Assembly (NCBI GenBank): GCA_030407315.1
Contig: JALQPE010002064.1
Span: forward strand, 1 to 64,000
DNA length: 64,000 nucleotides
Source: Asparagopsis taxiformis
Taxonomy: Eukaryota; Rhodophyta; Florideophyceae; Bonnemaisoniales; Bonnemaisoniaceae
Direction: 5' to 3'
Shown: piece by piece, positions 1,513 through 33,143 of the stretch
Position numbering within the stretch: position 1 is the stretch's first letter
How the letters are laid out: every line of letters begins with the position of its first letter
Translations under genes and position numbers: made by a program
Notes under the pieces: model-generated
Database searches by the model: none
Told to the model about the DNA's origin: nothing
What the model saw: only the letters and a program-made list of their open reading frames with translations

Positions 1513-1552
1513 TCGCTCACCTGGTAAGCGTGATGCACCTGTGACAACCTAT

Positions 1553-5464: not shown

Positions 5465-5697
5465 ACGTCTTCCGGACATAGGGGTGCTCGCGGCCTAGCT
5501 CTACAGCTGTAATTGTACCTCATTAAATACTGTTGATGACTGCCTACCGTATACAATCTGGGCTGTTGGCGTATTATCCGGTACTTGACCTGACCTGAAC
5601 GTTCATCGCAGACCGTTGTGGTTACCGACACTATACAGCAATCTTTTTTGTATCTCGTGCAACTCAATCGTTCCATCGCTTCCGGGAAAGCTTCATT
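5465..5697 (+). promoter_or_regulatory. Leader shared with the ParB-dioxygenase gene
   Basis: Directly after TR200, the stretch to about 5530 resembles the sequence after TR200 copy f (20908-20990). Shared blocks include GGGGTGCT, GCCTAGCT and ACAGCTGTAATT, in the same order and the same orientation to the downstream gene. This suggests a common promoter or 5' untranslated region used by different genes of the same mobile family. No TATA box is obvious. Confidence 0.5.
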
Positions 5698-7983: not shown

Positions 7984-8060
7984 AATTAGTGCAGTAAATG
8001 TGACGTTGGCTAGAAGGCTTATCATGTAGTACATTATCAATAGAGTGCTGCGATTTAGAT

Positions 8061-12822: not shown

Positions 12823-13132
12823 GAAGATGGGGAATGAAGCTGTGAGGTGTTTCTGGTATGTGTATATTTTGGGGCATACGATAGAAGTGAGAGTGCGTTT
12901 CAAGTGGTGTAAGATTTTGCTGACAATGTTCATGTTTGATGTCTTGATGATTTAATGGGCTGGGGTGGTGTCGAGGAAAGCGGGGATGGTATTGAGAAGA
13001 AGCGTATTTTTTGTAATCTAGGTCGTGAGGGTTCTTGAAGTATGTGCGGATGGTGGTGCATGGCGTTCGGATGGTAGGGAGAACGTGATAGTGAGGGAGA
13101 TGGGTGATCGACGATATGCTGACAGGTATTTT
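12823..13132. other. No gene seen, purine-rich
   Basis: Downstream of the microexon array. The plus strand is purine-rich. Short frames exist on both strands without motifs. I see nothing that supports a gene. Confidence 0.5.
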
Positions 13133-13262
13133 GTATTCTGGCTGGATACGTATTTCGTATTCTGGCTGGATACATATTCCGTATTCTGGCTGGATACGTA
13201 TTTCCTATTCTAACCGCGTATTTATTTCCTATTCTGACCAGATATGTATTCCCTATTCTAGA
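13133..13262. repeat. 24-bp tandem repeat
   Basis: About five copies of GTATTCTGGCTGGATACGTA plus four bases; the last two are degenerate. The period of 24 keeps frames open on both strands, so the short predicted repeats of Tyr-Phe-Val-Phe-Trp or Arg-Ile-Gly-Asn-Thr-Tyr are probably not proteins. Confidence 0.85.
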
Positions 13263-13384
13263 GAGACGTATTGTATACGAGCAGTTTCCTAAATGAGAGA
13301 ATAAAATACGGTCCGATATGGGCCCTGAATTTACCATCCGCTGTAATTTCTTCCCTCCCGGTTTTCGCTGATATATTGTATACT

Positions 13385-13700
13385 GGATGTCGGGTCCTAG
13401 TATTCCGCCATATGTACTAGAGAAAGTGGATGTCGGGTCCTAGTATTCCGCCAAACGTACTAGAGAAAGTGGATGTCGGGTTCTAGTATTCCGCCATATG
13501 TACTAGAGAAAGTGGATGTCGGGTCCTAGTATTGCGCCATATGTACTAGAGAAAGTGGATGTCGGGTCCTAGTATTCCGCCATATGTACTAGAGAAAGTG
13601 GATGTCGGGTCCTAGGGTACCTAGTATTCCGCCATATGTACTAGAGAAAGTGGATGTCGGGCCCTAGTATTCCGCCATATGTACTAGAGAAAGTGGACGT
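13385..13700. repeat. 43-bp tandem array (eight starts)
   Basis: Units start with GGATGTCGGG at 13385, 13428, 13471, 13514, 13557, 13600, 13652 and 13695. The spacing is 43 bp except for one 9-bp expansion containing GGTACCTAG. Each holds CCTAGTATTCCGCC and GTACTAGAGAAAGTGG. Such arrays near an element end are typical of subterminal transposase-binding repeats in CACTA-type transposons. Confidence 0.9.
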
Positions 13701-13826
13701 CCGCATCCAAAAAATTTTTATTTTTTTTTGGACGCGGACGTTCATTTGTTCTAGTAAATCTCGGGGCCGACTAGGACCCGTACTAGAGAGACTGGACGTC
13801 CGCGTCCACTTCCGAAAACACAGACG
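13690..13826. repeat. Terminus of an array-bearing mobile element, with inverted repeat
   Basis: GGACGTCCGCATCC at 13695 is inverted at 13731-13742 around an A/T-rich core, giving a ~20-bp stem. The final ~50 bp (GTACTAGAG, GGACGTCCGCGTCC, TTCCGAAAACACAGACG) recur at 27960-28008 and stop at the same base, so ACAGACG is probably an element end. Unrelated DNA follows in each case. Confidence 0.65.
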
Positions 13827-14510
13827 CGCCAGAATTTGCTGGTTGCGGCGACCATAGTCCTCATAGGGATTCGCTGACGCGTCATGACCAGAAGAGGTAC
13901 GAGCCGCCGGGGCGGAAGGACGGGAAGTAATCGGACGCGAACTTGGCGAAGGCCTGACATTCGGCTGCCTTGTTGGCCTGGGCGTAGCGCCTCCCTCGGC
14001 GACGACTTCTATCACCTCCTCGGTGTCGGCCGGCATGGCTCCCCTTGGGGACGGGCCGGTGGCCTTCGAGGACTCACCTTCGCGTGACGGCGGATTAACC
14101 GATGACGGTTTGACACTTGCCACTGGGGTGGAAGGCTTCTGGGAAGCAGGCGATTCAGCCGGAACAGAGTCGCGCTCTTGTGCGCTAGCCCTGGTAGGGG
14201 GGACCGTCTCTTCGGAACGTGCCTGCGCACTCGCAACCTTGCCAGCAGGCGACGCTGGATCAGCGGTGCCTTTGGCGGCAGTCGAACGCGTTCGCGTTTG
14301 CGATTGAGCCGCGGTGGCTGACGGCACGCGTGGCGCTGAAGTCGACGAAGACTTAGCCGGTGTAGGCGGGACCCCGGTGCGGGAAGAGGAAGCCTGATGG
14401 CGAGTTGTGGGACGGCGAACGCTGGAGCGTGTGGTAGGACGGTTGGGCGAACCCATATTGTCTCCTTCCTCTTCAGAGGATTCGAATTGTATCGGAGCTC
14501 GAGGGGACAT
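13827..14510 (-). pseudogene. Antisense gene of Ty3 element A, 5' fragment
   Basis: Starts at ATG 14510-14508 and covers the Ser/Thr/Pro-rich, disordered N-terminal ~228 residues of the antisense protein seen complete at 39274-41149. It then runs into unrelated repeat DNA at 13827. The second residue differs from the full copy (Ser for Thr). It is almost identical otherwise. Confidence 0.75.
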
Positions 14511-15010
14511 CCTGGAAGCCAGTAGAGGCGGTGACGGACGTTGATAAAAACCCTGAAGCGGGACGAATGAGCGGCCTATTGGCTTAAGTCTCCGGGAGGG
14601 AGCTGCGTTATTCAACCCAGGAAGGGGATCGCGAGGCAATGGGCCGAATCGGCAAATGCAAGCCTCGAATTGGCACCGCTCGTGCGATCGCGTGGCTAAT
14701 TATTTAGCAGATGGACGCAAAAACCCTTTGCGGGATAGTGGAAAGGACGCGAATGCGTGGATGCAGTTGGACACCGAAAGGGTGAATACGCTGTGTTGCG
14801 TTAGGATGAGGATGAACCTGGAGCAGGTATGAATTCCAATAGGAAACGGTCGGGCGGAACTCGGGAAGAGTCGGATGGACAACACATTTAGTGTGCACGC
14901 GCCGCGCGCGGGAAAATTTTGAATTGCACAATGCAACGGCCACAGCCAAAAATTGTAATTTTTATTTGATCAAATTTTGTCGGGACGACAAATCTCTCAG
15001 GAGGGGGCCG

Positions 15011-15696
15011 TGTCGTACCGCCTGGCGGTCCTCGCTGATCGAGCCGTGTCGCTTCCCTATTGGGTACCCACTTACGGGATGTGCCAATCAGAAGGCACCA
15101 GCCAACTGGCGTGTTTCCTATACTTAGGACCAGCTAAGGCTGACAAATAACCCCACCCGGGCCTGTCGGCCCCGGCCAAGACCCCACAAGGGGCAAAATT
15201 TTAACTTAGGCTGATCAGCCATACATTACAATGTAAGCCTATTGGCAATAACCTCGCGGGTAGGCGAGCGCCAGTAATTGGGTTCTGATTGGTCACTAAC
15301 TGGATATTTATTCCTAACCACTAACCCTAGCTTACAGTAGACTTAGTATAAAACGGCCACTGGAATAGCCAGTAGGCACGGTTTCTAGAGTAACGTAAAC
15401 TCAAGTGGAATTACGACCCACAGGAACAGTGTTCGCATACCTATTGTTCAACCCCTCTCCGGGAAAACCTTAGGGTTAGCCAACAGCTCGACGGATTACG
15501 TCATCTTGCTCCATTAATACGCCTCTCGCGTGAGCACCCCTTTGTCACACAACCCCCTCCGGGTAACGACACCTTCTCTCTCACGAGACTACCCGCTGGG
15601 TACCTATAAGGTTCATCTGCTCTACCACTTCCTCTACCGAGGCTCGGGACACCTGTCGGGTGGTTTGCCGCTCTAGCGGATTTTCTACCTGCTACA
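15011..15696 (+). repeat. LTR of Ty3 element A family (3' LTR of truncated copy)
   Basis: 686 bp, starts TGTCGTACCGCC and ends CTGCTACA. It is preceded by a purine tract (GGAGGGGGCCG), as expected for a polypurine tract before a 3' LTR. It matches 38087-38772 and 62107-62786. Confidence 0.9.
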
Positions 15697-18600
15697 CCCC
15701 GGACGGATATTGCGGATTGCACGTACTACGATGATCTTCGGATTTTCTAGGTCCTTTGCCTTGAGCTTCTTCCCCGTCGAACCGCTGCTGTAGTTCTCGA
15801 CAAACTCGACGTTGGCCATCGGCCTGGTGTCTTCCGCCGGAGTGTCCTCACCTCGCAAATACCGCGGGTCGTTGATGAACTGCGCCGAACAGAACGGAGC
15901 CGGAACAATCCAAATTGGATGCTCGATGTTTTCGTCGTCCTCCGCTGTTGCATACAGCTTGATGGCATACATCAAGAATGTTTCCTTCGTTATCGCCATG
16001 TGACCCTCTCCGTACGCGAACCTCATCGACTCCTTGCTCATATCAGAGTACACAACAGTTCCGTAGTATGCACATACTTCGTCGCCAACATTAAATGTCT
16101 GTTCAGCGAAGAGCCCTCTTCCTGCATTTGGATGCTTAATCAGCGATGGTCGAACGCTCAATTTTTTCGCAACACAATCGTGTGCCCGCATCACGCGAGG
16201 GTTTTCAGTTTGCAACCAGCGGCGCAGGGAAGGTGGCCAATAATGTACCGGTTTTTCCATGTGCTCGTGCGACGCAATCGACTCTGGGCACAGCTGCCAG
16301 AGGTACTGCCGAATATATTTCGGGAACCTCTGGTACAGGGGAAGGCCAGGTGGGTGTTCGATGATCCTGCGTTCCCTCTGTGTACGCATCGTGACAGAGG
16401 GGGACGCCAAGAACTTCTCAGCACTCTGTTTCGCTTCTGTCGTGACCCTCATGTCAGTGTTGTTTGAAAGAATTACACGTGACATGACTGCACACAGCTT
16501 TGGAAGCGATCGTGCCACACACAATTTGTCCATGTCACTGCCGACGAAAACACGGTGCTCAGGCAAGCTCATAGCTGCTTTTCCCGTTGCGAAAGTGCCA
16601 GAGAATGGATCGACAACAATATCACCAGGCTGTGAATGCTGGATGATCAACTCCATCATGAGAGCGACGCTCTTCTGCTCTGCACGAACTCTGACCGTAG
16701 CACCGGTTGTGCTCCTTGTTCGCCACACCATCTCATTCGAATCGATGGCGGGCATATTGATGGTGACGTTGCACCACGCCGGGTACGTGCCGTCCATGTA
16801 TCCGTGGTTCCTATACGCCACCATCTCGCTTCCGGTCTTGAACGGAACACCTCGCTTCCAACGAAGAAAACTGAATTCCGAACGACGTCCTCCTCCTCCT
16901 CGTCCTCCTCCTCCCCCTCATCGGCACTTTCTTCGCCACTGTGCTGCGATGCTTCGGAGTCCGAATTCATGGACGTAACCTCTTCTTCATCCGACCCGTC
17001 ATCACTGGCAGCAGCATCTGTTGGGTCTTCTGACTGCGGTCCTTTGTACGTTTCCAAGTAATGGAACCATTCGTAGAACTGCAAAACGGAGCAGAACACG
17101 ATGCCGTGGCCACCGGGGCGCAACAGCTCGTCAAACACTTCGATGCTAGCCTGCATATCTTCTGCAGCTAGCCTGTCGTACGAAGAGTTGGAATCGTTCC
17201 TCTTACGGCGAACATTGTAGGGCGGATCAGTCAGAATGAGCTGAACGTTGCCCGTGATGGGCACGTGTTCTCGGCTCTCGTCGGCACTGACCAAATCTTC
17301 AAAAGGGACGTCGTACACCCGGCAATACTGACTCATTTTCGAAAGAAAGTCCTTTGCGAGAGCCTGCCCTTCACTTTCCTGCTCTTCTGTCGCATGGGGT
17401 GACGGTGACGGGGGAGACGACGGCCCTTGGGTAGTAAGACTGGTCCTCCCAGGTCCAAGTTGAAGCCTGGTTGTGTGTCTTGTCGACGGAACCAAACCTC
17501 TCCCTCCTGTGTTGCGACGAGTGGGAGTGTCATCAACCGGCTTGGGGACCTTTTCTGCGTCCGCGGCTTGTGGTGCCGGGCGGAGGACAGCCATAACGTC
17601 TTCGTCGAGGGTGTCAAAGTACGCTGGCAGCTTGTCCGGATTTCCGCTTGACAAGTATATTTCCAGCGCCCCCCAGCGGTTGGACTCCGGCCAGGTGTAC
17701 AGGTCCGGGTTGACGATAAGAAACTGCAACCGGTCGAAGAACTTCCTCACAAGGTACCTAAATGCACTGTGCTGCGCACTGGTTCTTGTCTCTACTTTTC
17801 CACCATATCCATCAGGATGAGATAGGGGAGCTTTGTCGTGGTAGAGATCTAGCTTCTGCTCTATCGGTGCGAATAGACCTTCATCGAGCACGTCAAACCA
17901 ATGCTCACTGCTGTCGAAAATGATGTACGGCGCCATCAACTCTTCGAAGCTGGAAAACTTTGCGGCGAAGGCCACATCGGTCCAAGCATGGTATAAAACT
18001 TGAACCACGTAACAAGCTCGATTAGTGCTTTTCCGATGGGCTGGGACGCGTGCAGCTTCGTTCCCCTCTTCGGCCGCGTCGCCTATTCGGCGAAGCGGCA
18101 GGTTCTTGTTGTGATTTCGGATGATAGACAACGCTTGGAAATACATCAATACCTCGAACGTCTCCGGTGGAGCAAGAACGAAGGCGCTTGGTTCCCCGCG
18201 CTGCGGCGCCTGTAGTGGCGAAGGAAGCATGTTACATCCAATAAGGAAGGTCTGCGGCACGATCCCAGAAAGGATGCAGTGCTCAACCCATTGCCCGATA
18301 CGCTCATCCTGTCTTGAAAACTCGGCAATGGGTAATGCCAGACGAACAATCTGCTTGGCTCGCTCAACGTTCATCTCTGCCATGACGATTTCGGCAACAT
18401 CCGCCTCGACTCCAGCATTCTTCGAACGACCGCTGAAGGCCATGCTGAGTCGACCTTGCAGCGCCGCAAATTGTTCTTCTGTGCCCTGCGCAACCCAAGC
18501 GCCAAGGTCCGCGTATGTGAAACCTCCCGGCTTGTCCGTCAAGTCTGCGAAACTTGAGTGGGCGAACAAATCCAGCAAGAGGCGGAGGAAGTCTTTGCCA

Positions 18601-18749
18601 GCGAGAGTAGTTTCGCGGGCGGCGCGACCTACGTTTCGACGTGTACCCATGTCACTAGAATCCTCCCAAGGGCTAGCGGGTTCGCGCAGAATTGGCACGG
18701 TTGCGTCGTCAACGATCGGATTGCTGTTGCGCCTGCGCTTATTCGTCAT
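15697..18749 (-). pseudogene. DNA amino-methyltransferase fused to SET domain (right copy, deleted and truncated)
   Basis: ATG at 18749-18747. The acidic tract is in frame here, in contrast to the left copy. A 106-bp deletion at about 16860 (relative to left positions 3722-3827) shifts the frame just before the second half of the methyltransferase domain. That half remains readable in another frame, down to the Ty3 LTR. The last residues of the SET domain (the ELYVHYG region) are lost at 15697. DPPYN and VVDPFSGTFATG are both intact. Like the left copy it is broken, but at different places, so the ancestral gene was intact when the arms were duplicated. Confidence 0.8.
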
Positions 18750-19075: not shown

Positions 19076-19280
19076 CATCCGGACGGCCACTGGACATGGG
19101 GATGTCCAGCTCAGATGCATTGCTGGCCAGACCAGAAATTCTACAATTTCGGGCAGCAAAAATATTGCAAAAAAACATCGATTTGGGCGGTCGATTGTGC
19201 CGTACGGCACACCCCCATCTCAAAAACATGTTCACATGTGCATGTTTTTGAGAATAGCCCAAATTTTAATTCAAATCAGG
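19076..19280 (-). repeat. TR200 terminal repeat, copy d
   Basis: Right-arm counterpart of copy b. It contains TGGACAT-GGGG-ATGTCCA, GTGCCGTACGGCAC and the CACATGTG-centred hairpin, and ends CAAATCAGG. Confidence 0.9.
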
Positions 19281-19559
19281 ATGCAGATATTCGTCTTCTA
19301 GCATTGTCAGAACACATTCGTATAACCACATTTGGAGAACCTGAGCCCAGAGCTATCGGTTTCGGCGGGAGCTAAGCCATATCTCATATAATCAGTAACT
19401 ACTTCCCGCCAGCTGAGTGGTGGAACCCCTGCTATTTCTACCAACGAGACATACGGGGTGTCAACTCGGCAATCGTATATGATTTGGGTGCTAAATTTAT
19501 TCAAGAGACGAATGGGCTTCGAAAAGGAGCCCAACAACGTCTTCTTGTGATCCATGGGT

Positions 19560-19830
19560 ATAGGACTACTCTATTCTTCTCCAGGCTTCCACCATAGCCT
19601 CCTCCACCACCTCCGTTAATGGATCGAATATCCGAACCGCACCTCAACATGCTTTTCTTCTCATCCATGGGTACTGACATCTGCGAGATGTGAGTCACAT
19701 GTTCTCCAGGCTTGCACCATAGCCTCCTCCACCACCTCCGTTAATGGCAACATGTGAGATGTCAGTACCGGACAAGTTCTCCAGGCTTCCTCCGTAGCCA
19801 CCTCCTCCACCTCCGTCTGTGGGAATCAAC
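19560..19830. repeat. Gly-rich repeat tract, right-arm copy
   Basis: Inverted copy of 690-1065, with about 65 bp missing at the hairpin between the first two units. Region 19831-20349 holds only arm sequence without a gene. Confidence 0.5.
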
Positions 19831-20349
19831 GCGACATCACCACTGCGTCTTACCTCACATCCACATCTCTCCGGGATGAAAACGGACGGACGACATAGGG
19901 TTTGTAGACGGTTAGAATCTTGTTAGAAAAAAGTAAACGAAAGAGAACTTCTCTTTCATTGAATGATATCTCGTCCCTGTCGCAATATGTTCCATTTTCA
20001 TTTTCTCGGGTTGCACACCCATCATGGGTGATCAAGGCCTGGATCGAACCCTCCGAGGGTCTTCGATGGATAGGACAGATAGTGGAAGGCTTTTAAGCCT
20101 GTGACCAAGCGGCTATTGATTGGTTGGAGGAAGGAAATTACAGAGGAAATATAGCTGAGTACGGTGCTCGCGATAGCTGTTAGGTTAAAGTCAAATATGT
20201 TTTTCGATTATTTTTCGTACGGAAATGCCTTGGAAAAGACGATGCTTTATCGTTCTCCTGGAGGGAGTCCGTTGCATTGCACTCAATTCGAGAGCATCGT
20301 CATGAAGGAGAGGATTCTTTCTGCTTGTTAGAATCGGTTTAGAGGAGAT

Positions 20350-20520
20350 AGCTAATGCATTACTGGCCAGCCCAGAAATTGTAGAATTTCGGGCAGCAAA
20401 AAAATTGCAAAATTTTATCGATTTGGGCGGTCGAAAGTGCCGTACGGCACACCCCCATCTCAAAAACATGTTCACATGTGCATGTTTTTGAGAATAGCCC
20501 AAATTTTAATTCAAATCAGG
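20350..20520 (-). repeat. TR200 terminal repeat, copy e
   Basis: Outer end of the right arm, inverted relative to copy a. It is also the first TR200 of the direct repeat TR200-spacer-TR200 that precedes the ParB-dioxygenase gene. Confidence 0.9.
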
Positions 20521-20710
20521 TTGTCTAATTTGGCCACAACGGCCCCAGGCACCGGCCGCCGCCCCGAGTGGGGTTGTCACTGGCTTCTGTAAGCACTAAC
20601 TGTAAGGCTAAATGGCGTCTGACGAAGGGTCAATTTCAGGCTCAATACGCCAGGGACAGGTCTTGGTCCTTGTTCCATCATGGTCCCACCCTACTCTCTC
20701 ACAACCAACC
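20521..20710. repeat. ~190 bp spacer repeat, copy 1
   Basis: Starts after CAAATCAGG with TTGTCTAATTTGGCC and ends before the CCTGAAATGG of TR200. The same spacer recurs at 25689-25879 and, with an internal duplication, at 26077-26330. It contains GCCCCGAGTGGGG-type inverted bases and AAATGGCGTCTGACGAAGGG. Confidence 0.9.
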
Positions 20711-20907
20711 TGAAATGGACGTCTGGTGGATGTCCAGCTCGATTGCACTGCTGGCCAGCCCAGAAATTCTAAAATTTCGGGCACGAAAAATATTGCAAAA
20801 AACATCGATTTGGGCGGTCGATTGTGCCGTACGGAACATCCCCATCTCAAAAACATGTTCACATGTGCATGTTTTTGAGAATAGCCCAAATTTTAACTCA
20901 AATCAGG
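20711..20907 (-). repeat. TR200 terminal repeat, copy f
   Basis: Precedes the ParB-dioxygenase gene. Its palindrome is slightly mutated (GTGCCGTACGGAAC). It is followed at 20908-20990 by the leader that also follows copy c. Confidence 0.9.
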
Positions 20908-21254
20908 GTGTTCCCCGGATAAAGGGGTGCTTGCAGCCGCCCCAAAAGCCGCCTAGCTTGACAGCTGTAATTTTAACACATTACACATCAAGGACACTGC
21001 CTGCTTCACGCCACCTCGTCAGGTTTCGAGAGCCCGACTCGGGCCCGTTCCGAACGGACACTCACATCTCGATTGCCTCTCTTGCATTCCAGCGGTCACG
21101 ATAGGTCTGTACCTAACAAAATTTCGGTTGTATTGTGTTATTATTTCCAGCGATTGGCGTTCACGACCATTCTTCAAGCAACGTGAAACCTACCATCCAC
21201 ATCACTCCAATACGTCAACGTCAACCATCTCTTTTCCTTTCCAACTCAACAACC

Positions 21255-24200
21255 ATGGCGGATACGCATTTCAGCAGTTTGTTTTCAACGGTTTGCGGCG
21301 ATCAAGTGAGCGCGTCAGCGGAGTCGCGCGGACTCAAGCGCGGCGTCGATGTCAATTTGTTTGCGGACGTGGACGGTGCGGCTGTGCATATTGGGACGGC
21401 TTCGGTGAGCACTGCTGGTGGCGATGTTGGCCTTCCGCGCACGCTGCACAACCACAAGCTGCCGGAAACCGACGAGGCGGACTATATCGTCGTGCGCAAC
21501 ATTGCGACTAAGGACAAGTTCAAGGACCTCCCGTTCCCGTACATGTTTCATGGCGCCGAGGGACCGCCGGAGACGATGGGTGGAGCATACGCCGCGGCGT
21601 TTTACCCTTGGGATACTCGGATGATGCGCCCCGCTGCGGAGGATGGCCCTAGCGACATTTGTACCCCTGCTGCAGCGTCAAACTTCAACGCAGCGACGAA
21701 ACAGGCCAGCTCGGGACGGATGCCCAGTACCGGTCCAGCAGGCGAAATCACTGGTTCGGGGGGTACGAAGCATCCAGCACGCTCCGTCCCGGTTTCGGGA
21801 GGCACGAAGCACCCTGCTCGCTCTGCTAGAGCCTCCAGTGGAGACACGAAGCACCCTGCTCGCTCCAACGTCACCGAAGCTACTTCGCAGGACGTAACCG
21901 AGGTGGACGACGAACCGGAGGTGGCGGAAAGCATTCGTGAGCAGCAGGGGACGCAAATTACGGTGCCCAAGTTTGTGACGTCGGATTACGTCGGAGAAGG
22001 AGCGACTGTGTTGGTGAGGGAGCTAGTGGAACCGGCCGTGACCCTTCGCGATGTGAAAGAAGACCACGTGGAGGACCTGCGCAACAATATGTTGGCTGTG
22101 GGGTATGAGAGCTCTTCGCGTATCACTGTGACGGTGCTGAGGTCGCAGAACACGCATCTGCCCGCCGACACGCGTCTGTTCCAGAATGGCAAATTCCATG
22201 CCAATGCGAACGTGACCGTGATCGACGGACTGCATCGTCTCAATGCTATGCATAGCATTGCCGATGACTTCACGCGCCTCACCCGTATGCACAGAACCAA
22301 GCTGCCACAGGACGCAAACCGCTTGCGCTGGGTTACTCAGCCTCTGGATGTGTACTACCTTCGCCGCAAGGACGACAGTGATCTTCAGCCTCATGAGATC
22401 ATCCACAAGAGTGCAGAGTCGAACCATACGACTGGGACGCAACTGACGGAGCGCTCCCTGGTTCGAATCTTGTCTTCCATCCAGCAGTTCATCCGTACGA
22501 TTGCTGTTGCAAATAACGTGGAAAACGCTGGCGACTTGCGTGAGTCTGATGTCATCCGAACATTGTTCGAGGCGCAGTTCATGGGGATGATGAATTCAAC
22601 GAACACGGCCCGGCGGTGGACGCGTTTGGCTATAGCAACGCTGAAGCATCCTGTTCTCGACGACGTGTTGCGTGAGCTGAACAATTCCGAGCGCCGCAAC
22701 GAGATTGGGATAACGCACCTGGACCACAAGATAGTGCGCGAGTTGCTGGGAGAAAACTTTGTCTTCGTCTTGCGTGGTCTTTCGGAGTACTTGAACCCTG
22801 CTCATGGTGGACGTCCGGATGGACGCTTTGACGTGAACGACTTCTATACATACGTCCGTCGCGTGACTGCAATAGCAAATTCTCTGTACGCTGCGTTTGG
22901 GCGCCCAAAGAGTATTATGCGCAAGTCATTTCTGAGCACAGAGATGGCAATTGGGTCGGTTAAGCAGCCGAAGGAGTTGCAATGGCATCTCACCAATGCC
23001 ATTGCAATGTATAGAGGGGACGACCGGAGCAGTGAGGTTCGAATGCGACGGAGAACCACGCGTTTACAGGATTTGGAAAAGAACTTGAAAGAGTTTTTCA
23101 ATCCGACATTGAAGAAGAAGACTAAGGCTCGACGCAAACGCCGCCCTTCTGCTGCCAATGTGAGACTCACTCACAAGAAGCCGCGGAATGTCGAACATGA
23201 GCCTGCTTCGCATGGCATCCGCCGCCGTTCACAGCGACTTCGCTCGACGGGGAGCACACGCCTCGAGGAAGAAGAGCCGGTTGTGGTACAACAATCCGCC
23301 GGGGAAGAAGAGCAGGCCGTTGTTGATAAACCAACCGATCAACAACAAGCCACTGCTTCCGGTGATGAGGGTGACGAAGACTCCGCCCGTTCCCCCGATT
23401 CTGCCGTTGAGATTGTCCCCCAAGATAACCAACGTGCTGGTGCGACTCCCTCCAACCAAGAATCTGTCCATACCGCTTCGGACGAGGAAGACAAACAGGG
23501 TGCAGACGTGGGCCAAGTCGAAAGCAAGGGGGTCCGCGAAGTGACAATTACATTCACTGTTCCGGAAGGAGTGGAAGTCGATGAAGACGGTTACATCGTT
23601 CGTGACTCTCCTTCTGAACACGACCTCCTGTTCGACGACCGTATGCCATCTCTTCCTGACGATTTCGAAGTCAAAGACCGAGCCGAAGTGCATCATCTGG
23701 CGCAGCGTCCCGCGGGCGTCATCGCATCGGTGAGGGTTGGCTGTCTGCCCCCGATTGAGCTCAGGTTGTTATTGGAGAGTGTGGAAATCGATGAGGAGGG
23801 CAGAGAGGTGAGGTATTTGAAGCAAGTGGCGATGGACCCTGTGTTTGAGGGGCTGCATATTCCGGAACAACATCGGGCTCGTCATCTTGTTTTCGAGATC
23901 GAGACCATCTATCCGATGTTTTTCGCAGCGTGGAAGATGGCTGCCAAGGCGATGTGTGAGCCTACATCGACTTTTCTACCCTCGAGGCTGGACTTCGCCC
24001 AGGTTGCGCGAATGTCTACAAGCTGGAAGGATTCGTATGAGGCCGGCACTGGTATGGCGTACTTCCACAATTGCCGAACGGAAATCAACGAGCGAGGGTA
24101 TACGGTGATGCACAATTTCGCGGATGTAAGCTACCTCGATGCGTCGGACAAGTTCCCATTTGACTTGGGTCTCATGGAAGAAATTCCTAACCAGGAATTG

Positions 24201-25211
24201 TTTCGGTACTTCTTGGGAACATGGGAGGGGGAGGAGGTGCACAAGGACCCTGGGAACCGGCAGCTGTGGAGTCCCATTGTCAATACTGGGGACGATGAAA
24301 CAGATGAGAAGAACCGGAATGAGGGGAGGGCTCGCTTCACGTCTACGCGCCACTGCCTGGTTGACTATGCCGAGAACGACGAGTCGCATATCGACCGGTT
24401 CAAGTTTGTGACGCGGCGAGCCCTGCTGGATGTGTGGTTGGGAATCCTTGTCCGGCTGATAGGGCTCGAGGAGTGCGGTTTACCGGGAGAAAAACTTGTC
24501 ATGCCGGCATCTGGGGGACGGTTTTTGATAACGGGAAAGGGGTGTTCTCGGCAGGTCCCACACAATGATTTCCCTGTTCCTCCTCGCGACCGCAAAGATC
24601 AACTTCCGGGTTACTTTGTTATTACCAACGGAGATGACCCATTCCCTATCTGGGTGTGTCCAGGGTCCCACAAGTACGTCTTTTCCAAAGCACTGGAATT
24701 AGATATGTACGCCAAGACGATGAAGCTGAAGAAGGTAATCGTTCCGCCACGTTCAGTCTTCATCGGTCACGGCCATGTACAACATGCCGGGGCAGGGCAT
24801 GTCGACAGAGTTGTGTCACACACGACAACGAGGTATCACACGTATTTCAGGAATGCGTCGTATCCGATTCCCGACAATGTTTCGTTTGGTTTCATCAGGC
24901 GGTTGGGATTCGAAGAAGAAGTAATCCCCAATGCTCCGCGCCGGTCTGCCAGGCAAAGTCAACCGGCACCTGTCAATGTTCGCCACAAGACAGTTGTTCC
25001 CATCCCGGTCAAGAAAGATCGTAGGCCGAAGACAGGGCAGCTCGGAATCATGCGGATGAAGACGACAGAAGCTCCCAAGAAGAGAACCCTCACAGCGGGT
25101 GAAGAATTCATCTTGAGCAGATCAACTCCACAGTTGCCGATAACGCCTATTCTGCCGGGAGATCCTGAATATGATGAGGACGAAGACGAAGAACAATTTT
25201 CCGACGGCTAG
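21255..25211 (+). CDS. ParB/sulfiredoxin-like domain plus 2OG-Fe(II) dioxygenase-like fusion (1318 aa)
   Basis: ATG at 21255 in a good context (ACCATGG); the frame is intact to TAG at 25209-25211. Residues 165-205 hold three GGTKHPARS-type repeats. From about 255 to 345 a ParB/Srx-like domain is suggested by LRNNMLAVGY, then TVIDGLHRLNAM. A helical region follows. A strongly basic stretch near 615-670 (KKKTKARRKRRPS) could be a nuclear signal. An acidic region lies at 670-800. Near residue 1102 VPHNDFPVPP gives the H-x-D of a double-stranded beta-helix dioxygenase, followed by WVCPGSHKYV, then GHGHVQHAGAG with the distal His near 1175, and TTRYHTYF with a 2OG-binding-type Arg near 1190. Expected chemistry is iron- and 2-oxoglutarate-dependent hydroxylation. 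DNA as substrate is an inference from the ParB fold and the methyltransferase linked through TR200. Confidence 0.75.
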   Translation: MADTHFSSLFSTVCGDQVSASAESRGLKRGVDVNLFADVDGAAVHIGTASVSTAGGDVGLPRTLHNHKLPETDEADYIVVRNIATKDKFKDLPFPYMFHGAEGPPETMGGAYAAAFYPWDTRMMRPAAEDGPSDICTPAAASNFNAATKQASSGRMPSTGPAGEITGSGGTKHPARSVPVSGGTKHPARSARASSGDTKHPARSNVTEATSQDVTEVDDEPEVAESIREQQGTQITVPKFVTSDYVGEGATVLVRELVEPAVTLRDVKEDHVEDLRNNMLAVGYESSSRITVTVLRSQNTHLPADTRLFQNGKFHANANVTVIDGLHRLNAMHSIADDFTRLTRMHRTKLPQDANRLRWVTQPLDVYYLRRKDDSDLQPHEIIHKSAESNHTTGTQLTERSLVRILSSIQQFIRTIAVANNVENAGDLRESDVIRTLFEAQFMGMMNSTNTARRWTRLAIATLKHPVLDDVLRELNNSERRNEIGITHLDHKIVRELLGENFVFVLRGLSEYLNPAHGGRPDGRFDVNDFYTYVRRVTAIANSLYAAFGRPKSIMRKSFLSTEMAIGSVKQPKELQWHLTNAIAMYRGDDRSSEVRMRRRTTRLQDLEKNLKEFFNPTLKKKTKARRKRRPSAANVRLTHKKPRNVEHEPASHGIRRRSQRLRSTGSTRLEEEEPVVVQQSAGEEEQAVVDKPTDQQQATASGDEGDEDSARSPDSAVEIVPQDNQRAGATPSNQESVHTASDEEDKQGADVGQVESKGVREVTITFTVPEGVEVDEDGYIVRDSPSEHDLLFDDRMPSLPDDFEVKDRAEVHHLAQRPAGVIASVRVGCLPPIELRLLLESVEIDEEGREVRYLKQVAMDPVFEGLHIPEQHRARHLVFEIETIYPMFFAAWKMAAKAMCEPTSTFLPSRLDFAQVARMSTSWKDSYEAGTGMAYFHNCRTEINERGYTVMHNFADVSYLDASDKFPFDLGLMEEIPNQELFRYFLGTWEGEEVHKDPGNRQLWSPIVNTGDDETDEKNRNEGRARFTSTRHCLVDYAENDESHIDRFKFVTRRALLDVWLGILVRLIGLEECGLPGEKLVMPASGGRFLITGKGCSRQVPHNDFPVPPRDRKDQLPGYFVITNGDDPFPIWVCPGSHKYVFSKALELDMYAKTMKLKKVIVPPRSVFIGHGHVQHAGAGHVDRVVSHTTTRYHTYFRNASYPIPDNVSFGFIRRLGFEEEVIPNAPRRSARQSQPAPVNVRHKTVVPIPVKKDRRPKTGQLGIMRMKTTEAPKKRTLTAGEEFILSRSTPQLPITPILPGDPEYDEDEDEEQFSDG

Positions 25212-25490
25212 ATAGCTTAACAACTACTACTTTGGTAAACAATTATCGAGAATATAATCATCTCCTTTATCACTTTCAATCTATGAACCTAGTATAATGT
25301 ACTTCCGTTCCATGCTTTCAAACTAGATTGTCCATTCCCTCGTGGGTTGGAGCATGATTTCCAGGACGATTCCCTCACATCTCTAGACTCGATGGTCTAT
25401 GGTAGAAATAGCAGAACAATTGGGTTTGTACGTGCTTCATCGCCTACTTGCTTCCGGTAATGTGTGGACGTGCACGATACACGATCAACC
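25212..25490. other. 3' flank of the ParB-dioxygenase gene, no gene
   Basis: A/T-rich stretch after the stop codon, then TR200. No gene seen. Confidence 0.6.
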
Positions 25491-25688
25491 TGAAATGGAC
25501 GTCCGGTGGAAGTCCAGCTCAGATGCATTGCTGGCCAGCCCAGAAATTCTACAATTTCGGGCACAAAAAAATATTGCAAAAAACATCGATTTGGGCGGTC
25601 GAAAGTGCCGTACGGCACACCCCCATCTCAAAACCATGTTCACATGTGCATGTTTTTGAGAATAGCCCAAATTTTAATTCAAATCAGG
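25491..25688 (-). repeat. TR200 terminal repeat, copy g
   Basis: Same orientation as copies e and f, so the ParB-dioxygenase gene lies between direct, not inverted, repeats. It has the GTGCCGTACGGCAC palindrome. Confidence 0.9.
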
Positions 25689-25879
25689 GTGTCTTAATTT
25701 GGCCACAACGGCCCCAGGAACCGGCCGCCGCCCCGAGTGGGGTTGTCACTGGCTTCTGTAAGCACTAACTGTAAGGCTAAATGGCGTCTGACGAAGGGTC
25801 AATTTCAGGCTCAATACGCCAAGGACAGGTCTTGGTCCTTGTTCCATCATGGTCCCGCCTCACTGTCTCACGACCAACC
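25689..25879. repeat. ~190 bp spacer repeat, copy 2
   Basis: Near identical to 20521-20710. Together with copies g and h it repeats the arrangement TR200-spacer-TR200 found at 20350-20907. Confidence 0.9.
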
Positions 25880-26076
25880 TGAAATGGACGTCCGGTGGAT
25901 GTCCAGCTCGATTGCACTGCTGGCTAGCCCAGAAATTCTAAAATTTCGGGCAGAAAAAAATTGCAAAAAATCATCGATTTGGGCGGTCGATTGTGCCGTA
26001 CGGCACACCCCCATCTCAAAAACATGTTCACATGTGCATGTTTTTGAGAATAGCCCAAATTTTAACTCAAATCAGG
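25880..26076 (-). repeat. TR200 terminal repeat, copy h
   Basis: Full copy with intact palindrome and hairpin, ending CAAATCAGG before the third spacer. Confidence 0.9.
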
Positions 26077-26330
26077 GTGTCTTAATTTGGCCACAACGGC
26101 CCCAGGAACCGACCGCCGGCCCCGATCGGGGGCTGTCACTGGCGTCTGTAAGCACCAACTGTACGCCGGAACCGGCCACCGCCCCGATCGGGGCTATCAC
26201 TGGCTTCTATAAGCACCAACTGTAAGGCTAAATGGCGTCTCACGAAGGGTCCATTTCAGGCTCAATACGCCAGGGACACGTCTTAGTCCTTGTTTCATCA
26301 TGGTCCCGCCCCACTCTCTCACGACCAACC
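26077..26330. repeat. Spacer repeat, copy 3, with internal duplication
   Basis: Longer than the other spacers because a ~60 bp segment containing CACCGCCCCGATCGGGGC-like sequence is duplicated. CCCCGATCGGGG is a perfect palindrome created or kept here. Confidence 0.85.
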
Positions 26331-26418
26331 TGAAATGGACGTCCGGTGGATGTCCAGCTCGATTGCACTGCTGGTCAGCCCAGAAATTCTAAAATTTCCG
26401 AAAAATCAATTTGGTGGC
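26331..26418 (-). repeat. TR200 terminal repeat, copy i (truncated)
   Basis: Only the inner end (CCTGAAATGGACGTCCGG) to AAAATTTCC is well matched. A degenerate ATCAATTTGGTGG remains, then similarity is lost. Confidence 0.75.
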
Positions 26419-27689
26419 CCAGCATCTCCTGTGCCGAAAATTCCCGCACTCACTTCTGATATACGTCTAGACGTGTTTCGCACTTGTACGCATCAGGGAA
26501 GGCTGCACGGAAGGTTGAGACTACGCTACTTGTGTACCGCGTCGTCTGAAATAGCGAGTAGTGTTTGTTGTATAGTTGTGGAGTATGCGTCTAGTGGTTT
26601 GTAAAGCTTGCAGAACGGGATAGGGATGTGGTTGGCCCTATTTTATGAATACATGAGTACCAATATTCAGGGTTGACAAAGCGGAAAGGCATAGGCTCAT
26701 ACATGTTTGAGATTGCATAGTAGAGAAAATATTTCCATCGAAATTTACATGGAGCTGATGGAGGTTTTAAGGATGAGGTATGAGAGGAAGAAAATTCTTC
26801 TGTGGTATGAGGATGTGTTCTAAGGGGGGATGGAATCCTGGGATGGTACAGGGGGAGGTGGAAATGTACGGAGTGCGGGTTTAGAATGGAGTGTGATTCG
26901 GAGAGGAGTGCCGACAAGCATATTATGGGGATTGGGGAGACGCTGTGGGGTGTTGGGGTAGTGAGGGCAGAGGAGGTGTTTAGGTGGGACCGTAGGAGGG
27001 TGCGGTTGAAGGCGCCGAGAGGAGGGGGTTTTAGGAAAGTGAGGAGAAAGAGGGGGAGGGGGTAGCGTCTGTTCTGGCTGTGGTGAGTGGGGATGTGATG
27101 GAGAAGAAGGGGGTTATTGTATTTGGGGAGGGAGGGGAGTGGGAGGATGGGTGCGAAGTGGAGGGTTGATATGTGGTTCAGAGCGGGGAGTTTTCTGGGG
27201 AGACGGCGGCGGAGCGGGAGCGTGGGCCGGTGGTGGTGGTGTATACGGCATCGAAGATGCGGATGGCGTGGGGGCATGGAGCAGGTCGGGTACGGGATGG
27301 GGAGTGAGAGGTTTTGGAAGAGTAAGCTGCAGGGGAAGTTTGTGGAGAGGGAGAAGGAGAGGGGTTGAAGGTAGAGGAGAGAGGGTATTGAAGAACAATA
27401 CGTTTCAAAGGTGATGGGGGAGAGCATGGTCGAGGAGATAGGGGGTGTTTTGCCCTATTCTGAGGTAGTATGAGGACTGGTTATACGAAATCTGTACGGT
27501 AGAGCAGAAAAGGATGTATGGAATGGAGGTGTGCACCGTGGAAGCGGGGATAGGTAGCTGAAAATGCGTGCTAGAGTGGTATTGGGGGTGTTTGAGGTAC
27601 AGTACGGGGGAGGTGAGCACCAACTGGAAGGGGGTGTGAGCGAGAGGATGAAAAAATTAAAGACGAAATTGGAGTCGACCGACAAGGAA
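26419..27689. other. Purine-rich region without a supported gene
   Basis: The plus strand is rich in G and A from 26750 to 27660. A 278-codon minus-strand frame (26591-27427) and shorter plus frames are low-complexity (Pro/Ser/Leu or Gly/Arg) and look like composition artefacts. It may be the interior of the element whose terminus is at 28008. Confidence 0.5.
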
Positions 27690-28008
27690 AAATATAGTGG
27701 TCGCCGTGATGGATGCGGACATCCATGTCGAGCACGGCGGCAGAAATTTCTGGGGTCGAAATTTTTGAATTTCTGAACCGGCGCCCGTCCTAGGTGGACA
27801 TAGACATGGCGGAAGTCCATCCCGAGGGGGACATCCGTGGTACTAGAAACAATGAATGTCGCCCTAGTAATACTAGACGTACTAGACCGCATGGACGTCC
27901 GGTTCTAGGCGGACATCCAAAAATACTGGAGAACATGGACGTCCGCCTAGTAATACTAGGTGTACTAGAGGTTGTGGACGTCCGCGTCCATTTCCGAGAA
28001 CACAGACG
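27690..28008. repeat. Degenerate subterminal array and element terminus
   Basis: Repeated GGACRTCC and CTAGTAATACTAG motifs, for example at 27893, 27932 and 27975. The last ~50 bp match 13777-13826, including GTGGACGTCCGCGTCCA and the end ACAGACG. The orientation is the same as the array at 13385-13826. Confidence 0.65.
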
Positions 28009-28153: not shown

Positions 28154-28502
28154 TATGAATCATTATAGCTTGATTCAGTTGTATCACATTGTGTGATTAT
28201 GATTTGAGCAATATGGTAATTCTTTGATTGTTTTGTTTTGTTATGTTGTCTATCATATTGAGTAATTGTGGCCGGTGCGATATTAAATCACTATTGACTT
28301 GTTTATAGCTGTTTAACACGTGTTGTTTACAGTAGCTCTGCTCTTGTGCTCTTGCAACAGAGATGTTCCCCTCCCAGCCGTTGCTGACACATCATTTGTA
28401 TTGCAGAAGCATTCGTCAGGGAACGCACACCATGCCAATACTGAATTGCATAAGAGTAAGAAACTGTTAGTGTTACTGTTTAATAAAGACATCGAAGTGA
28501 TA
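28154..28502 (+). repeat. 5' LTR of the copia element
   Basis: 349 bp, from TATGAATC to GTGATA (TAT...ATA ends rather than TG...CA; exact ends are uncertain by a base or two). A TTAATAAAG near 28479 could serve as a poly(A) signal. Confidence 0.85.
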
Positions 28503-28559
28503 ACTCCTTTTGATCAACCTTCTCGAAAAGACAACGAACGCCTACCACTTTCTGTTGTT

Positions 28560-31500
28560 ATGGGCCCAGATACTGGGAAATCAGCGCTTCCTTCGCGCCC
28601 GCGCTTCACATGGGATGTGCGAAATGTTCCGTGGACGGACGGAAAAGGGAACCAAGAGGAGTATGCCTCCTCTGTAAAGTTGTGGAGCTCATTCCATGAC
28701 ATGTTACCGGATACAAACACAAACAAGATACCAGCTGAACTAGAAGGACTCATGCTACAGAGCCAATTGTTTGGACGTGCAAAGGAATTATGCAAAGCAA
28801 TCCCGGACAATGTCATACAGTCAGCTGATGGTGCAACTGCTATTGTGCAGAAAGTTTTCAAGCGTGATCCACTTGCTGTAGTAAGTGAAGTATATCAAGA
28901 CTTTATTGCACTACTGAATACTGAACGTGGACAAAGCGAGTCGTTCATGAATTTTGAGTCACGCTTTGAAGCACAAGTTGCCAAATTTAATGCACACTCC
29001 AAAGATATTGAGCTACCTTCTTCATGGACTGCATTCATGCTGCTAAATAATGCTGTCGTTGACAGTGGTCAACGAATATCTGTACTTGCAGCATCATCTC
29101 CGCGTGATACAACATTTGATGCAAATGCGACAACATCAACCCTTCTCAAAGCTGTGTCTTACAGCTCAATATCATCTGTTTTGAGGCAATGCGACAGACC
29201 AAAAACCTCTGAAAATGGCTCACTATCTACCATACCACTACAGGCCAACAGTGCGATACGTATGCAACGTGGCCAACGCAGAAAACTGTCTCCACAGGAA
29301 CTAGTTGACTTGAAGTCTCGAAGCACTTGCAGAAAATGTCACCAAGTTGGACATTGGGCCGTTGATCACAACCGCGATGGATCTCTCAAACATGGAGTAA
29401 TTTCTATCTCTCCTAATGACACAAGCAAAAGTTGTGCTTCAAAGACATTACAAAAGAAAAAGTCTCCCACATTTAATATGGTGCAGATACAAGGAGAAAA
29501 TTTGAATGTAACCATGTCAACAGGGCCACTGCTTGACGATGGTGCGCCATACAGTGGAATTGGACTAAATGAGTTCAAACTGCTACAGCCTCTACTCCTC
29601 CCAACTTGGAATAGTTCTTTCGATCCTTTACCTGACTCTATTGCAGATCGCCCATTCTGGCAATACGGTACTGGAGAGCACTCCAGTGATAGTAGGCCCA
29701 TAATTGGATCGATCATCCTACGGGCACAATCAGATAATGGCCATACCGTGGAGATACGCCACCTCGTCATTCAAGGGTCATCACAATGGGTTGTTGGACG
29801 CAATGTAACTCGGCATTGTGACATCATACATATTGGGAAAAACGTGTTGCAGCTTCCAAAAGACATGACAGGGAACAGTCATGGCACAATTGAGCTTCTG
29901 GATATTGATATGCACAGTTACATACCCTGCAAGGCGTTTCTCGAATTTCAAGATGAGCTCACTGTTTCACAAGCATCACAAATGTTTTGTGCAACAACAA
30001 CGATACACAATGGGGACACTAACCACCCTTGGAATGAACTAAGAAAAATTGTTGACAAAGTTCATCTACATGTTTGCGGTCACTCTACATACTCTGATAT
30101 TAAGATACTTTTACAACGCAATGGTCTTTGGAGTGATGAAGTGAAGAAGTACTTGTCAAGAGTAATGGAAACATGCACTAGTTGCTCTGCAACCTCAGAG
30201 CCGAAGAAAATGAGGAAAGTTTCGCTGAGTGCGATGAGCCGCCAATTCAACGATGTGATATGTATTGACCACTTCCATTTGGAGGACATGCGGGTTTGTC
30301 ACATTATGGACTCAGCTACGAGATACTCCATTGGAGCTGTAGTTCCAGACACTTCTATGAAACATGCTATAGCAACACTGGATGCACAATGGATATCAGT
30401 ATTCTGGATACCGGGTGCAATTGTTTACGATCCAGCATTTGACACTGCTGAATTCCGTGAATATCTTGTCAAACATGATATTGAAGCTCGACCAATACCA
30501 CCCAGACGCCATAACAAGAATTTACTAGAGTCTAAACATCGAGTAATTCGTGATATATTCATCCGACTTCAACATGGTATGGATGAATCTGACTCACTAG
30601 CGCAAACATTGCTAGTGCAGCAATCTATTAGGATTTCAAATAATCTCTATGGAAACGACATAATGTCTGCCCATGAGTTTGCTAAAGGATACACAAGGCC
30701 GATACAGAAGGATACTAAACTCAAAATGATACCATCTGACATCATTTCTGCACATGACCATCTCGTTGCTAAGAGAAAGCTGACATTAATTCTGAGATCG
30801 AAATCTGTACAAGACCCAACAATCTCAATGGGTGATTTAGTACAAGTCTACGTCAAACGGCAGCACGAGAAAAGGGGATCGTGGAGCGCACCTAAACCAG
30901 TCCTATCGTCCGACCATGCCTCTCGCGCTGTGACAGTTCCTGGACATAATGGTAGAACTATGAAGGCAGCTGTTGAAGATATACGTCATGCAATTACTGA
31001 TGATGCACTTGCAGTATCAATCCAGGAAGCAATTGACACCATTGAAAAGAGTGCAGATGAAACAATTGATGAATTTATGGCAGATGAAGATGAGGCTGAT
31101 GTCAAAAACTTGCAAAACCCACCCGATACGCGATACGATGCTGACTTCGATCTCACCAATTCAGTGGGCATATGCAATAATTCGGACTCTCCCAATGAAT
31201 TACCCAAAATTGGTGATTCTGTAGACATCTATTGGCCACTAGACGACGCATACTATACTGTTTCAGTCTCTACAATCAAGGATGGAATCTTTAACATCCA
31301 ATACAACGATGGTGATACAGAACAGCTCAATCTTGATGATGAGAAATGGCGCTTCACACCTGATAAGTTATGTAGTAATGAAGTGCAACTGTCACCTGCT
31401 CATGAATTGGAAAGTTTTGAGCAACATGCTATCAAGATGTACTTTGATCAATTCGGCATCAAAGACTTAATGTTATTTCAAGCACAAGGCTTACCAGCAT

Positions 31501-33035
31501 ACGTTACTCAGAATGCATACGATAAGGAAGAATCCTCATTTAAGAAAACTGTCAAGGAAATACCTTTATCAGAGGTACCTGAGGGTGCAAACGTGATCAC
31601 CAGTCACGTGCTTTACAGAGTCAAGATATGTGATGATGGCTCGCACATTATGAAAGCTCGGATCGCTCCTCACGGGAACAAAGATTGTGACAAATCTAAT
31701 CTAAAGAATGATTCAGCAACTTGCCCACCTGTAGGCATACGGTTGCTACTATCACTTGCATCTATACACAAGTGGCCAATTGCGAAAGTTGACTTCAAGA
31801 GCGCTTTCCTCGAGATGGGAGAAGCAAAGCGAGATGTCTATGTTGTGCCACCAAGAGAATGTGCAACCAAATCATGCTATTGGCTACTACTCACAGCTGC
31901 GTATGGTCTTGTCAACGCGAATGCAAAGTGGCAAGATCATATTGATAACTTCCTCTTTGGGCGTGGACTTTCATAACTGGTTTATGTACCACAGCTTTTC
32001 TATAAGATTGAGAATGATATACTTTCTATTGCAGCTGTCAAAGTTGTTGATGACATTCTTCTGTGTGGGGAGAGGAGATATGTTCAAGATATTATTGACT
32101 TGATATCTAATTCATATGAGCTCGGAACAATCGTATTTGGCCCTGGAACCATTATATTCTTTGGGATGACGATTACACAATCTGATGACTATGTCATTAC
32201 TATCCATGCAGATGACAAGCTCGAGTCGATGCAGCCGTTCCCACTCACCCGCCTTCGTAGGAAAGAAATTGATGATGCATTGAATGATGTTGAATTGTCC
32301 GCTTTCCGCTCCCTAAATAGTTCCATTGGATGGATGGGCATAGCGGCATCCCCATTCTGTGCATTAACTGCAAGCTATTTACAGCAAAAAGGACCGCATC
32401 CTACCGTACGTGACCTTGTTACTCAAACCAACATGCTGCGTACATTGAAACGCTTGGGAAGTGTCATCAAGTTCAAGACACCATCACGTGGTGAGTACGA
32501 TCTATCCATACTCTTATTCGCAGATGCTAGCAGACGCATCGATCATGGACAAATCGGATACTTGTCTGGCCTCCTCTTTGGTCCGATTGGAGAAGGAGCT
32601 ACATTCCACTTGATGTCATGGACATCACACAAGTCTAAACGACCAGTTAAGTCTATCGGTGCTGCTGAGATACTGGCTGCTGGAGCAGCTATTGATGAAG
32701 GCAAAATGCTTGTCAAGGCATACGAGAAGCTCCTGAATGTATCTGTAGCTCACATTGTTGCAGTGGACTCGAAAGATTTATTCACAACGCTTTCTACTTG
32801 TCGTAATGCTACCGACCGTTCGATACGAGCTGACGTCAGTGTGATACGATATGAGTTCGAGACTCGAAATGTTTCTACTATGATTTGGCTACCTGGGAAA
32901 AGCAATTTAGCTGATCCGCTTACCAAACCAGACAGCCACCTAGAGCTCCCTCTACAGCTCATGATGTTTTCGGGTGAAATCCCCGTCTCCTTTACTGAAA
33001 CCATGTTCCGCCACTCTGATCAATCCACCGGCTGA
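28560..33035 (+). pseudogene. Copia Gag-Pol polyprotein, one in-frame stop
   Basis: One frame of 1492 codons from ATG 28560 to TGA 33033-33035, broken only by TAA at 31974-31976. Order: Gag; zinc-knuckle-like CRKCHQVGHWAVDH (the last Cys is His); protease-like DDGAPYS; integrase zinc motif HVCGHSTYSD to CTSC; integrase D-D-E core (CIDHF, VYDPAF, NLLESKHR); reverse transcriptase (KVDFKSAFLEM, TAAYGLVNANAKW, then VVDDILLCG after the stop); RNase H (LFADAS, GAAEIL, VAVDSKD, LADPLTK). Integrase before RT is diagnostic of Ty1/copia. The stop sits between the AAYGL and VDD motifs of RT and would abolish Pol unless read through. Confidence 0.85.
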
Positions 33036-33062
33036 TGACTGTGCTCTTCAAAATTGGGGCAG

Positions 33063-33143
33063 TATGAATCATTATAGCTTGATTCAGTTGTATCACATTG
33101 TGTGATTATGATTTGAGCAATATGGTAATTCTTTGATTGTTTT
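33063..33143 (+). repeat. 3' LTR of the copia element, first part
   Basis: Matches 28154-28234 and is preceded by the purine run TTGGGGCAG. The match ends inside GATTGTTTT, where the DIRS-like element begins. Confidence 0.85.

Follow-up and report, generated by a model that had tools for sequence, protein, structure and literature searches.

Kyakuja-Dileera-Zisupton elements were reportedly described by Iyer in 2014 as carriers of TET/JBP genes. A similar cargo is found in fungal Plavaka elements (Kojima 2025, PMC12730594), in which a transposase and a dioxygenase gene share one DNA transposon; that report gives 2-bp target duplications for these elements and presents the dioxygenase genes of DNA transposons as presumed countermeasures against silencing by 5-methylcytosine (5mC). 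Here, we describe a large Plavaka-type transposon present as two partial copies in a 64,000-nucleotide stretch of DNA (‘the window’; positions 1 to 64,000 of contig JALQPE010002064.1, part of C1938 in our numbering) from assembly GCA_030407315.1, deposited as Asparagopsis taxiformis. The genome analysed comprises 141 Mb in 3156 contigs. Besides its transposase, the element carries a gene for a ParB-like protein with a putative 2-oxoglutarate/Fe(II)-dependent (2OG-Fe(II)) dioxygenase domain, as well as a gene in which a predicted DNA methyltransferase is fused to a SET domain.

Compared with the TET/JBP-bearing Plavaka elements, which likewise unite a transposase and a dioxygenase gene, ours adds the ParB-like stretch and the methyltransferase-SET gene, and its termini differ from those reported (PMC12730594); where PE-type TET/JBP proteins (the type in Plavaka) read HxE, ours reads HND (HxD) and matches no family model. 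Kyakuja-Dileera-Zisupton elements are also fungal DNA transposons with a DNA dioxygenase—a predicted one in our case—but they use another transposase type, and the accessible text of PMC12730594 describes no methyltransferase-SET partner for them. Amoebidium has ‘Plavaka giant repeats’ (Sarre 2024, PMC11244446), which are described with tyrosine recombinases and reside in a genome with 5mC, whereas no C5-methyltransferase was detected in the genome of our element; neither a dioxygenase nor a DNA methyltransferase is named in them in the accessible portion of that paper. The bdelloid rotifer N4CMT (PMC8885841) resembles our partner gene in that a bacterial-type PF01555 methyltransferase is joined to a chromatin domain and the eukaryote lacks C5-methyltransferases. 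N4CMT, however, is a chromodomain fusion encoded by a host gene, acts on transposons and deposits N4-methylcytosine (4mC), whereas ours is a transposon-carried SET fusion of predicted activity. Dioxygenase-bearing Plavaka elements are already known, while the methyltransferase-SET partner and the ParB-like fusion are apparently new: our searches of open-licence literature, judged mostly by titles and the openings of abstracts, listed no Plavaka element with either.

The dioxygenase-candidate gene is cargo of a 20.4-kb Plavaka-type transposon

The transposon unit was recognised by matching the window to eight contigs chosen for good copies of TR200, a repeat family treated below. A complete element on contig C1674 measures 20,433 bp between its TCTGTG..CACAGA ends (20,437 bp with the flanking CG) and contains, in this order, a Plavaka transposase (1037 aa, plus strand), a coiled-coil open reading frame (ORF; minus strand, here broken into two frames), the methyltransferase-SET gene (1081 aa, minus strand), TR200 copies, the dioxygenase gene (plus strand), more TR200 and the right end. 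Of the two partial copies in the window, copy A represents the transposase half and copy B the dioxygenase half; C1674 matches window positions 1305–13520 contiguously at 98.4%. These comparisons show a Plavaka-type DNA transposon of about 20.4 kb that carries the dioxygenase gene as cargo. Its parts within the window are:

1–13826, minus strand: transposon copy A, incomplete at the contig start, with its transposase-side terminus at 13826 (contig matching)
15697–28008, plus strand: transposon copy B, broken off within the methyltransferase-SET gene, with its right terminus at 28008 (contig matching)
21255–25211, plus strand: gene for the ParB-like protein with a putative 2OG-Fe(II) dioxygenase domain, 1318 aa (ORF reading)
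8061–11174, minus strand: Plavaka transposase ORF, 1037 aa (PF18759)
1788–5037, plus strand: methyltransferase-SET gene of copy A, two overlapping frames (ORF and Pfam)
15697–18749, minus strand: methyltransferase-SET gene of copy B, truncated at 15697 (ORF and Pfam)
5599–7983, plus strand: ORF2, 794 aa, with a coiled-coil stretch and sub-cutoff Pfam matches only
13793–13826, plus strand: terminal inverted repeat, transposase side, 32 of 34 bases as at the other end
27975–28008, plus strand: terminal inverted repeat, dioxygenase side, 34 bp, ...CACAGACG
13341–13710, plus strand: subterminal 43-bp tandem repeats by the transposase-side end

The transposase matches PF18759 with an E value of 3.4e-24; its score of 86.1 bits compares with a cut-off of 26.3. 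The termini, CGTCTGTG...CACAGACG, belong to 34-bp inverted repeats that share 32 of 34 bases and match neither the TGT..ACA (A) nor the CATCA..TGATG (B) subtype of Plavaka (PMC12730594). Directly outside TCTGTG, nine of ten further end pairs carry CG at both ends, the tenth having AA at one end. A CG/CG target-site duplication was considered on this ground (nine of the ten pairs) and dropped, as an empty site and variable outer flanks indicate that the CG is part of the element. With the CG assigned to the element after the flanks had been seen, equal 2-bp flanks were present in five of 11 end pairs, C1674 included (p = 3e-4), and in only one of the four full-length pairs (C52, as opposed to C69, C88 and C1674). 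An unoccupied relative of the copy A flank exists within the window: the match between 13827–14627 and 39157–39957 stops exactly at the element end, with the break at 13827. A separate repeat family occupies 13827–15696, 38087–39957 and 62107–62787, its copy near 39957 being this unoccupied relative. A genome-wide pattern search for the joined empty site of another copy, made for one site, returned none.

The dioxygenase and methyltransferase-SET genes move together

Across the genome, the 31-base transposon end was found at 2754 sites (1389 + 1365, at most two mismatches), the dioxygenase signature at 913 and the methyltransferase signature at 984 (at most three mismatches each); the reversed-pattern control gave 0 in all three cases. 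With about 900–1000 signature copies of 20 kb, the element would make up to about 13–14% of the assembly, which is a maximum given the existence of shorter and truncated copies.

For linkage, the first 100 listed dioxygenase sites were all compared with 71 of 100 listed methyltransferase sites (those up to contig C276). At least 38 of the 100 had a listed methyltransferase site 4–10 kb upstream, a lower bound because only perfect signature sites were listed, and none had one downstream; 37 of the 71 methyltransferase sites entered were paired with a listed dioxygenase site. Protein searches placed a scored methyltransferase copy (n = 90) 3.8–4.9 kb upstream of nine of 35 dioxygenase copies, in divergent orientation, and seven of the eight fetched contigs showed the linkage, a rate biased by the selection of these contigs for TR200. 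End pairs on C52, C69 and C88, 20.0–20.8 kb apart, enclose both genes. Together, these observations show that the two genes move together. Neither appears to be needed in cis, because in end pairs 11–12 kb apart (C11, C12, C14, C49 and C90), which represent shorter members of the family, neither gene has a listed site free of mismatches, mismatched copies being possible.

The 38 linked pairs comprise 22 divergent and 16 co-oriented ones, 13 of the latter spaced by 6618–6643 bases. At the junction on C119 (12400–14400), the methyltransferase 3′ end is followed by TR200 copies and then by the dioxygenase 5′ end; the methyltransferase-SET cassette, which in the window corresponds to 1305–5464, is thus inverted in C119, with its edge in TR200. 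The tight co-oriented spacing suggests a single inversion that was then amplified, and not repeated flips, as the origin of the two orientations. On C1749 (1–20000), dioxygenase-only units equivalent to window positions 19397–28008 are arranged head to tail, and the 30 kb fetched from this contig hold such tandem units without a methyltransferase gene.

TR200 repeats lie inside the transposon

An initial annotation of the window, made from the letters alone, had held that both genes are mobilised by one TR200 family. That the genes travel together stood; their vehicle is the Plavaka-type transposon with its 34-bp terminal inverted repeats, to which TR200 is internal. TR200 as the mobile unit was rejected because its copies are intergenic, lie inside the larger transposon and differ in number between elements. 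Repeat matching located the following copies:

20355–20523, plus strand: TR200 upstream of the dioxygenase gene, copy 1
20728–20910, plus strand: TR200 upstream, copy 2
25508–25691, plus strand: TR200 downstream of the dioxygenase gene, copy 1
25897–26079, plus strand: TR200 downstream, copy 2
19100–19283, plus strand: TR200 by the 5′ end of the methyltransferase gene, transposon copy B
1305–1488, minus strand: TR200 by the 5′ end of the methyltransferase gene, transposon copy A
5283–5464, plus strand: TR200 by the 3′ end of the methyltransferase gene, transposon copy A, inverted relative to 1305–1488

One more TR200 lies at about position 8 of the window and a partial one at 26348. Within the two pairs flanking the dioxygenase gene, the copies are spaced by 387 and 388 bases. 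TR200 recurs across the genome (1191 first-look candidates, of which 40 were scored and all matched), and 64 copies of at least 150 bases (47 distinct) from the window and the eight contigs align with a mean per-column conservation of 96%. The repeat holds a perfect 16-bp palindrome, TGTGCCGTACGGCACA, plus the arms AAAAACATG..CATGTTTTT. Chance is excluded as a source of these repeats, though not of the bare HxD..H..R pattern discussed below. The initial annotation had staked its reading on the dioxygenase gene recurring with TR200 elsewhere in the genome, and contig matches and genome-wide copies show that it does.

A conserved protein with ParB-like and dioxygenase-like motifs

The open frame at 21135–25211 (plus strand) would encode 1358 aa from a GTG start; read from its first ATG, at 21255, the protein has 1318 aa, and translation stops at 25211. 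In this protein, VIDGLHRLNAM occupies residues 322–332, and the HxD..H..R pattern is formed by H1103-N-D1105, H1177 and R1193. ORF and repeat coordinates thereby bear out the earlier description of an intact 1318-codon gene with both motifs, set between TR200 pairs. We infer that the C-terminus is a 2OG-Fe(II) dioxygenase and the middle a ParB-like DNA-binding module, the sole ground for the latter label being a GxHRxxA-like motif.

Among 7999 scored database candidates, a single homologue emerged (P0001; 1377 aa, E = 2.7e-156). The alignment spans the full length: an N-terminal block reaches 46% over 114 residues, the ParB-like stretch and the C-terminal region align as well, and all four residues of the HxD..H..R pattern are identical. 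Searches of the protein database with alignment A1, of viral contigs, of GTDB contigs and of phages returned no relatives beyond P0001. Within the genome, H1103, D1105, H1177 and R1193 are kept in 10, 10, 11 and 12 of 13 aligned segments, respectively, the remaining segments having other residues, stops or a gap at these positions.

No internal stop interrupts 33 of 35 scored genomic copies (at least 98% identity), a set in which intact copies are over-represented because the scored copies are the best matches. In an alignment of ten copies, from which matches shorter than 2500 bases (C1621 among them) were excluded, rare substitutions fell on codon positions 1, 2 and 3 in 36, 27 and 53 cases. 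Non-synonymous and synonymous changes numbered 73 and 43, versus 87.4 and 28.6 expected (N/S ratio 0.55, p = 0.0034), showing that the dioxygenase copies are under mild purifying selection.

The methyltransferase-SET partner

A single open frame of at least 1065 aa is retained in 51 of 90 scored genomic copies of the partner gene. The intact protein of C1674 (P0002, 1081 aa) matches both PF01555 (E = 3e-15) and SET PF00856 (E = 1.1e-6); DPPY at residues 524–527 precedes FSGTF at 764–768, the beta order of an N6_N4 amino-methyltransferase. The SET domain retains its YVHYG end and has IND at the expected NH position. Of seven relatives of P0002, one is 99% and six are 27–33% identical. A precomputed table labels all seven with PF01555 and six with SET, and the seventh, P0009, matched SET in a direct scan (E = 1.5e-4). 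The persistence of the fusion in relatives of 27–33% identity indicates that it is old. Five viral-contig loci that matched the methyltransferase-SET alignment contained only short methyltransferase stretches and were judged to be unrelated, phage-type enzymes.

P0009 (residues 1–170) opens with a ParB-like motif, LIDGAHRCMAV, akin to the stretch joined to the dioxygenase candidate. Aligning that stretch with the P0009 N-terminus gave a score of 41, versus 28.2 ± 4.9 for shuffled sequences, 10 of 300 of which reached it; for P0001 against P0009, five of 300 shuffles reached the score. In a profile alignment between A1 and P0009, hhalign left the ParB-like regions unpaired, and of twelve helical-region comparisons the best were equalled by 3/150 and 5/150 shuffles, the others by at least 14/150. 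This hints, suggestively only, that proteins of the two kinds may swap the ParB-like stretch, and we do not use it as support.

Host background and other features of the window

A six-frame, exon-wise search of the genome for C5-cytosine methyltransferases (PF00145) gave no match, while the control matched in 10 of 14 genomes; such a search could miss a finely split gene, and four RPB2-type genes were seen in open frames of more than 1000 aa. The observed/expected CpG ratio is 1.11 in the dioxygenase gene, 1.09 in the methyltransferase region and 0.95 in the transposase, and C-to-T-type changes are little raised at CpG (9 per 668 CpG sites versus 16 per 1514 other C/G sites). The normal CpG content and the scarcely raised CpG transitions do not indicate heavy CpG methylation. 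By its RPB2 fragment, the genome looks fungus-like, because the top score was obtained against yeast Pol II (YOR151c, 559 bits); a second RPB2 group, presumably mammalian, reached 526 bits.

Elsewhere in the window, a Copia-like retroelement at 28154–33143 (RVT_2, weak integrase match; frame cut at 31976) is bounded by an 81-bp direct repeat whose two copies, at 28154 and 33063, are identical. Direct repeats at 43470–43958 and 55995–56482, 97% identical and 12.5 kb apart, are perhaps long terminal repeats.

A candidate self-marking pair and its alternatives

We consider it probable that the transposon-borne methyltransferase-SET protein writes an N-methyl base, which the ParB-like dioxygenase cargo oxidises or removes, leaving the element's chromatin transcribable. 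The methyltransferase-SET protein would deposit the mark on the element, N6-methyladenine (6mA) being likelier given its DPPY motif, and might also set a histone mark there. The ParB-like dioxygenase would be recruited to the element, perhaps at TR200 arrays, and would oxidise or remove the N-methyl base; together, writer and oxidiser would put the element's own chromatin in a transcribable state. Such a self-marking pair is favoured because the element comes with an N-methyltransferase of its own and is a poor fit for a role in countering 5mC, and also because of published links: in several eukaryotes, 6mA is tied to permissive chromatin and H3K4me3 (PMC12695648), and CcTET oxidises 6mA too (PMC12730594). 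With no C5-methyltransferase detected and CpG not depleted, N-methyl marks seem a likelier target of the dioxygenase than 5mC.

Several results weigh against this proposal, whose weakest step is the enzyme class, resting as it does on motif recognition. Shuffling reproduced HxD..H..R in the invariant columns of residues 860–1225 in 513 of 5000 trials (~10%). The 1318-aa protein, searched whole and as C-terminal pieces, matched no dioxygenase family in Pfam, NCBIfam or PHROG (the best PHROG match of P0001 had an E value of 0.15); no ParB family profile matched around residues 215–425, and no PDB sequence match pointed to a dioxygenase or ParB. AlphaFold models, built from two-sequence alignments only, were of low confidence (mean pLDDT 28.9 and 31.3) and so lend no support to the double-stranded beta-helix of a TET/JBP-type enzyme. 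The complete copy on C1674 has its dioxygenase frame broken in two, and its SET domain carries IND where active SET domains carry NH. That TR200 could be the binding site of the ParB-like protein is a guess. As to a host 6mA background, MT-A70 gave no match in the genome, though its control matched nothing either. The same holds for a genome-wide search for Tet_JBP (PF12851), with no match in genome or control.

Among the alternatives, the C-terminal domain may hydroxylate or demethylate proteins or histones, or hydroxylate small molecules, as a partner of the SET domain instead of the DNA methyltransferase. The sequence contexts W.CP.SH, PP.SV...HG..QHAG and TRYH.YF, which resemble phytanoyl-CoA-type enzymes, and the SET domain of the partner speak in its favour; yet the ParB-like motif, the DNA transposon and the adjacent DNA methyltransferase, none of them proof, point to DNA, and we regard this option as unlikely. 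We also find it improbable that the dioxygenase is a transposon-borne 5mC eraser functionally unrelated to the neighbouring methyltransferase-SET gene. Published Plavaka elements with TET/JBP genes have been interpreted in this way (PMC12730594), but here PF00145 is without a match under the search conditions given above, CpG ratios are 0.95–1.11 with CpG transitions little raised, and the element carries an amino-methyltransferase instead. That both genes are passengers without a role in the element's life is very improbable: the 11–12-kb end pairs without a listed zero-mismatch site of either (mismatched copies being possible) and several broken copies are in keeping with it, but the N/S ratio of 0.55 (p = 0.0034), the open frames in 33/35 dioxygenase and 51/90 methyltransferase best-scored copies and the near 1:1 signature counts (913 versus 984) argue otherwise.

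The proposed self-marking pair could also be extended to a self-contained, transposon-encoded DNA hypermodification system, in which the methyltransferase-SET protein would write both N-methyl and histone marks while the ParB-like protein would nucleate on arrays of TR200 palindromes in the fashion of parS and oxidise the methyl group. We hold this extension to be improbable; if true, it would amount to a private chromatin mark on ~1000 elements in a host without 5mC.

The usual view of transposon-carried dioxygenases is that they erase host cytosine methylation. In the present case, a Plavaka-type element that is strikingly large and abundant carries a dioxygenase candidate along with a methyltransferase-SET gene in a genome without a detected C5-methyltransferase, which makes the question of what such dioxygenases act on directly testable.

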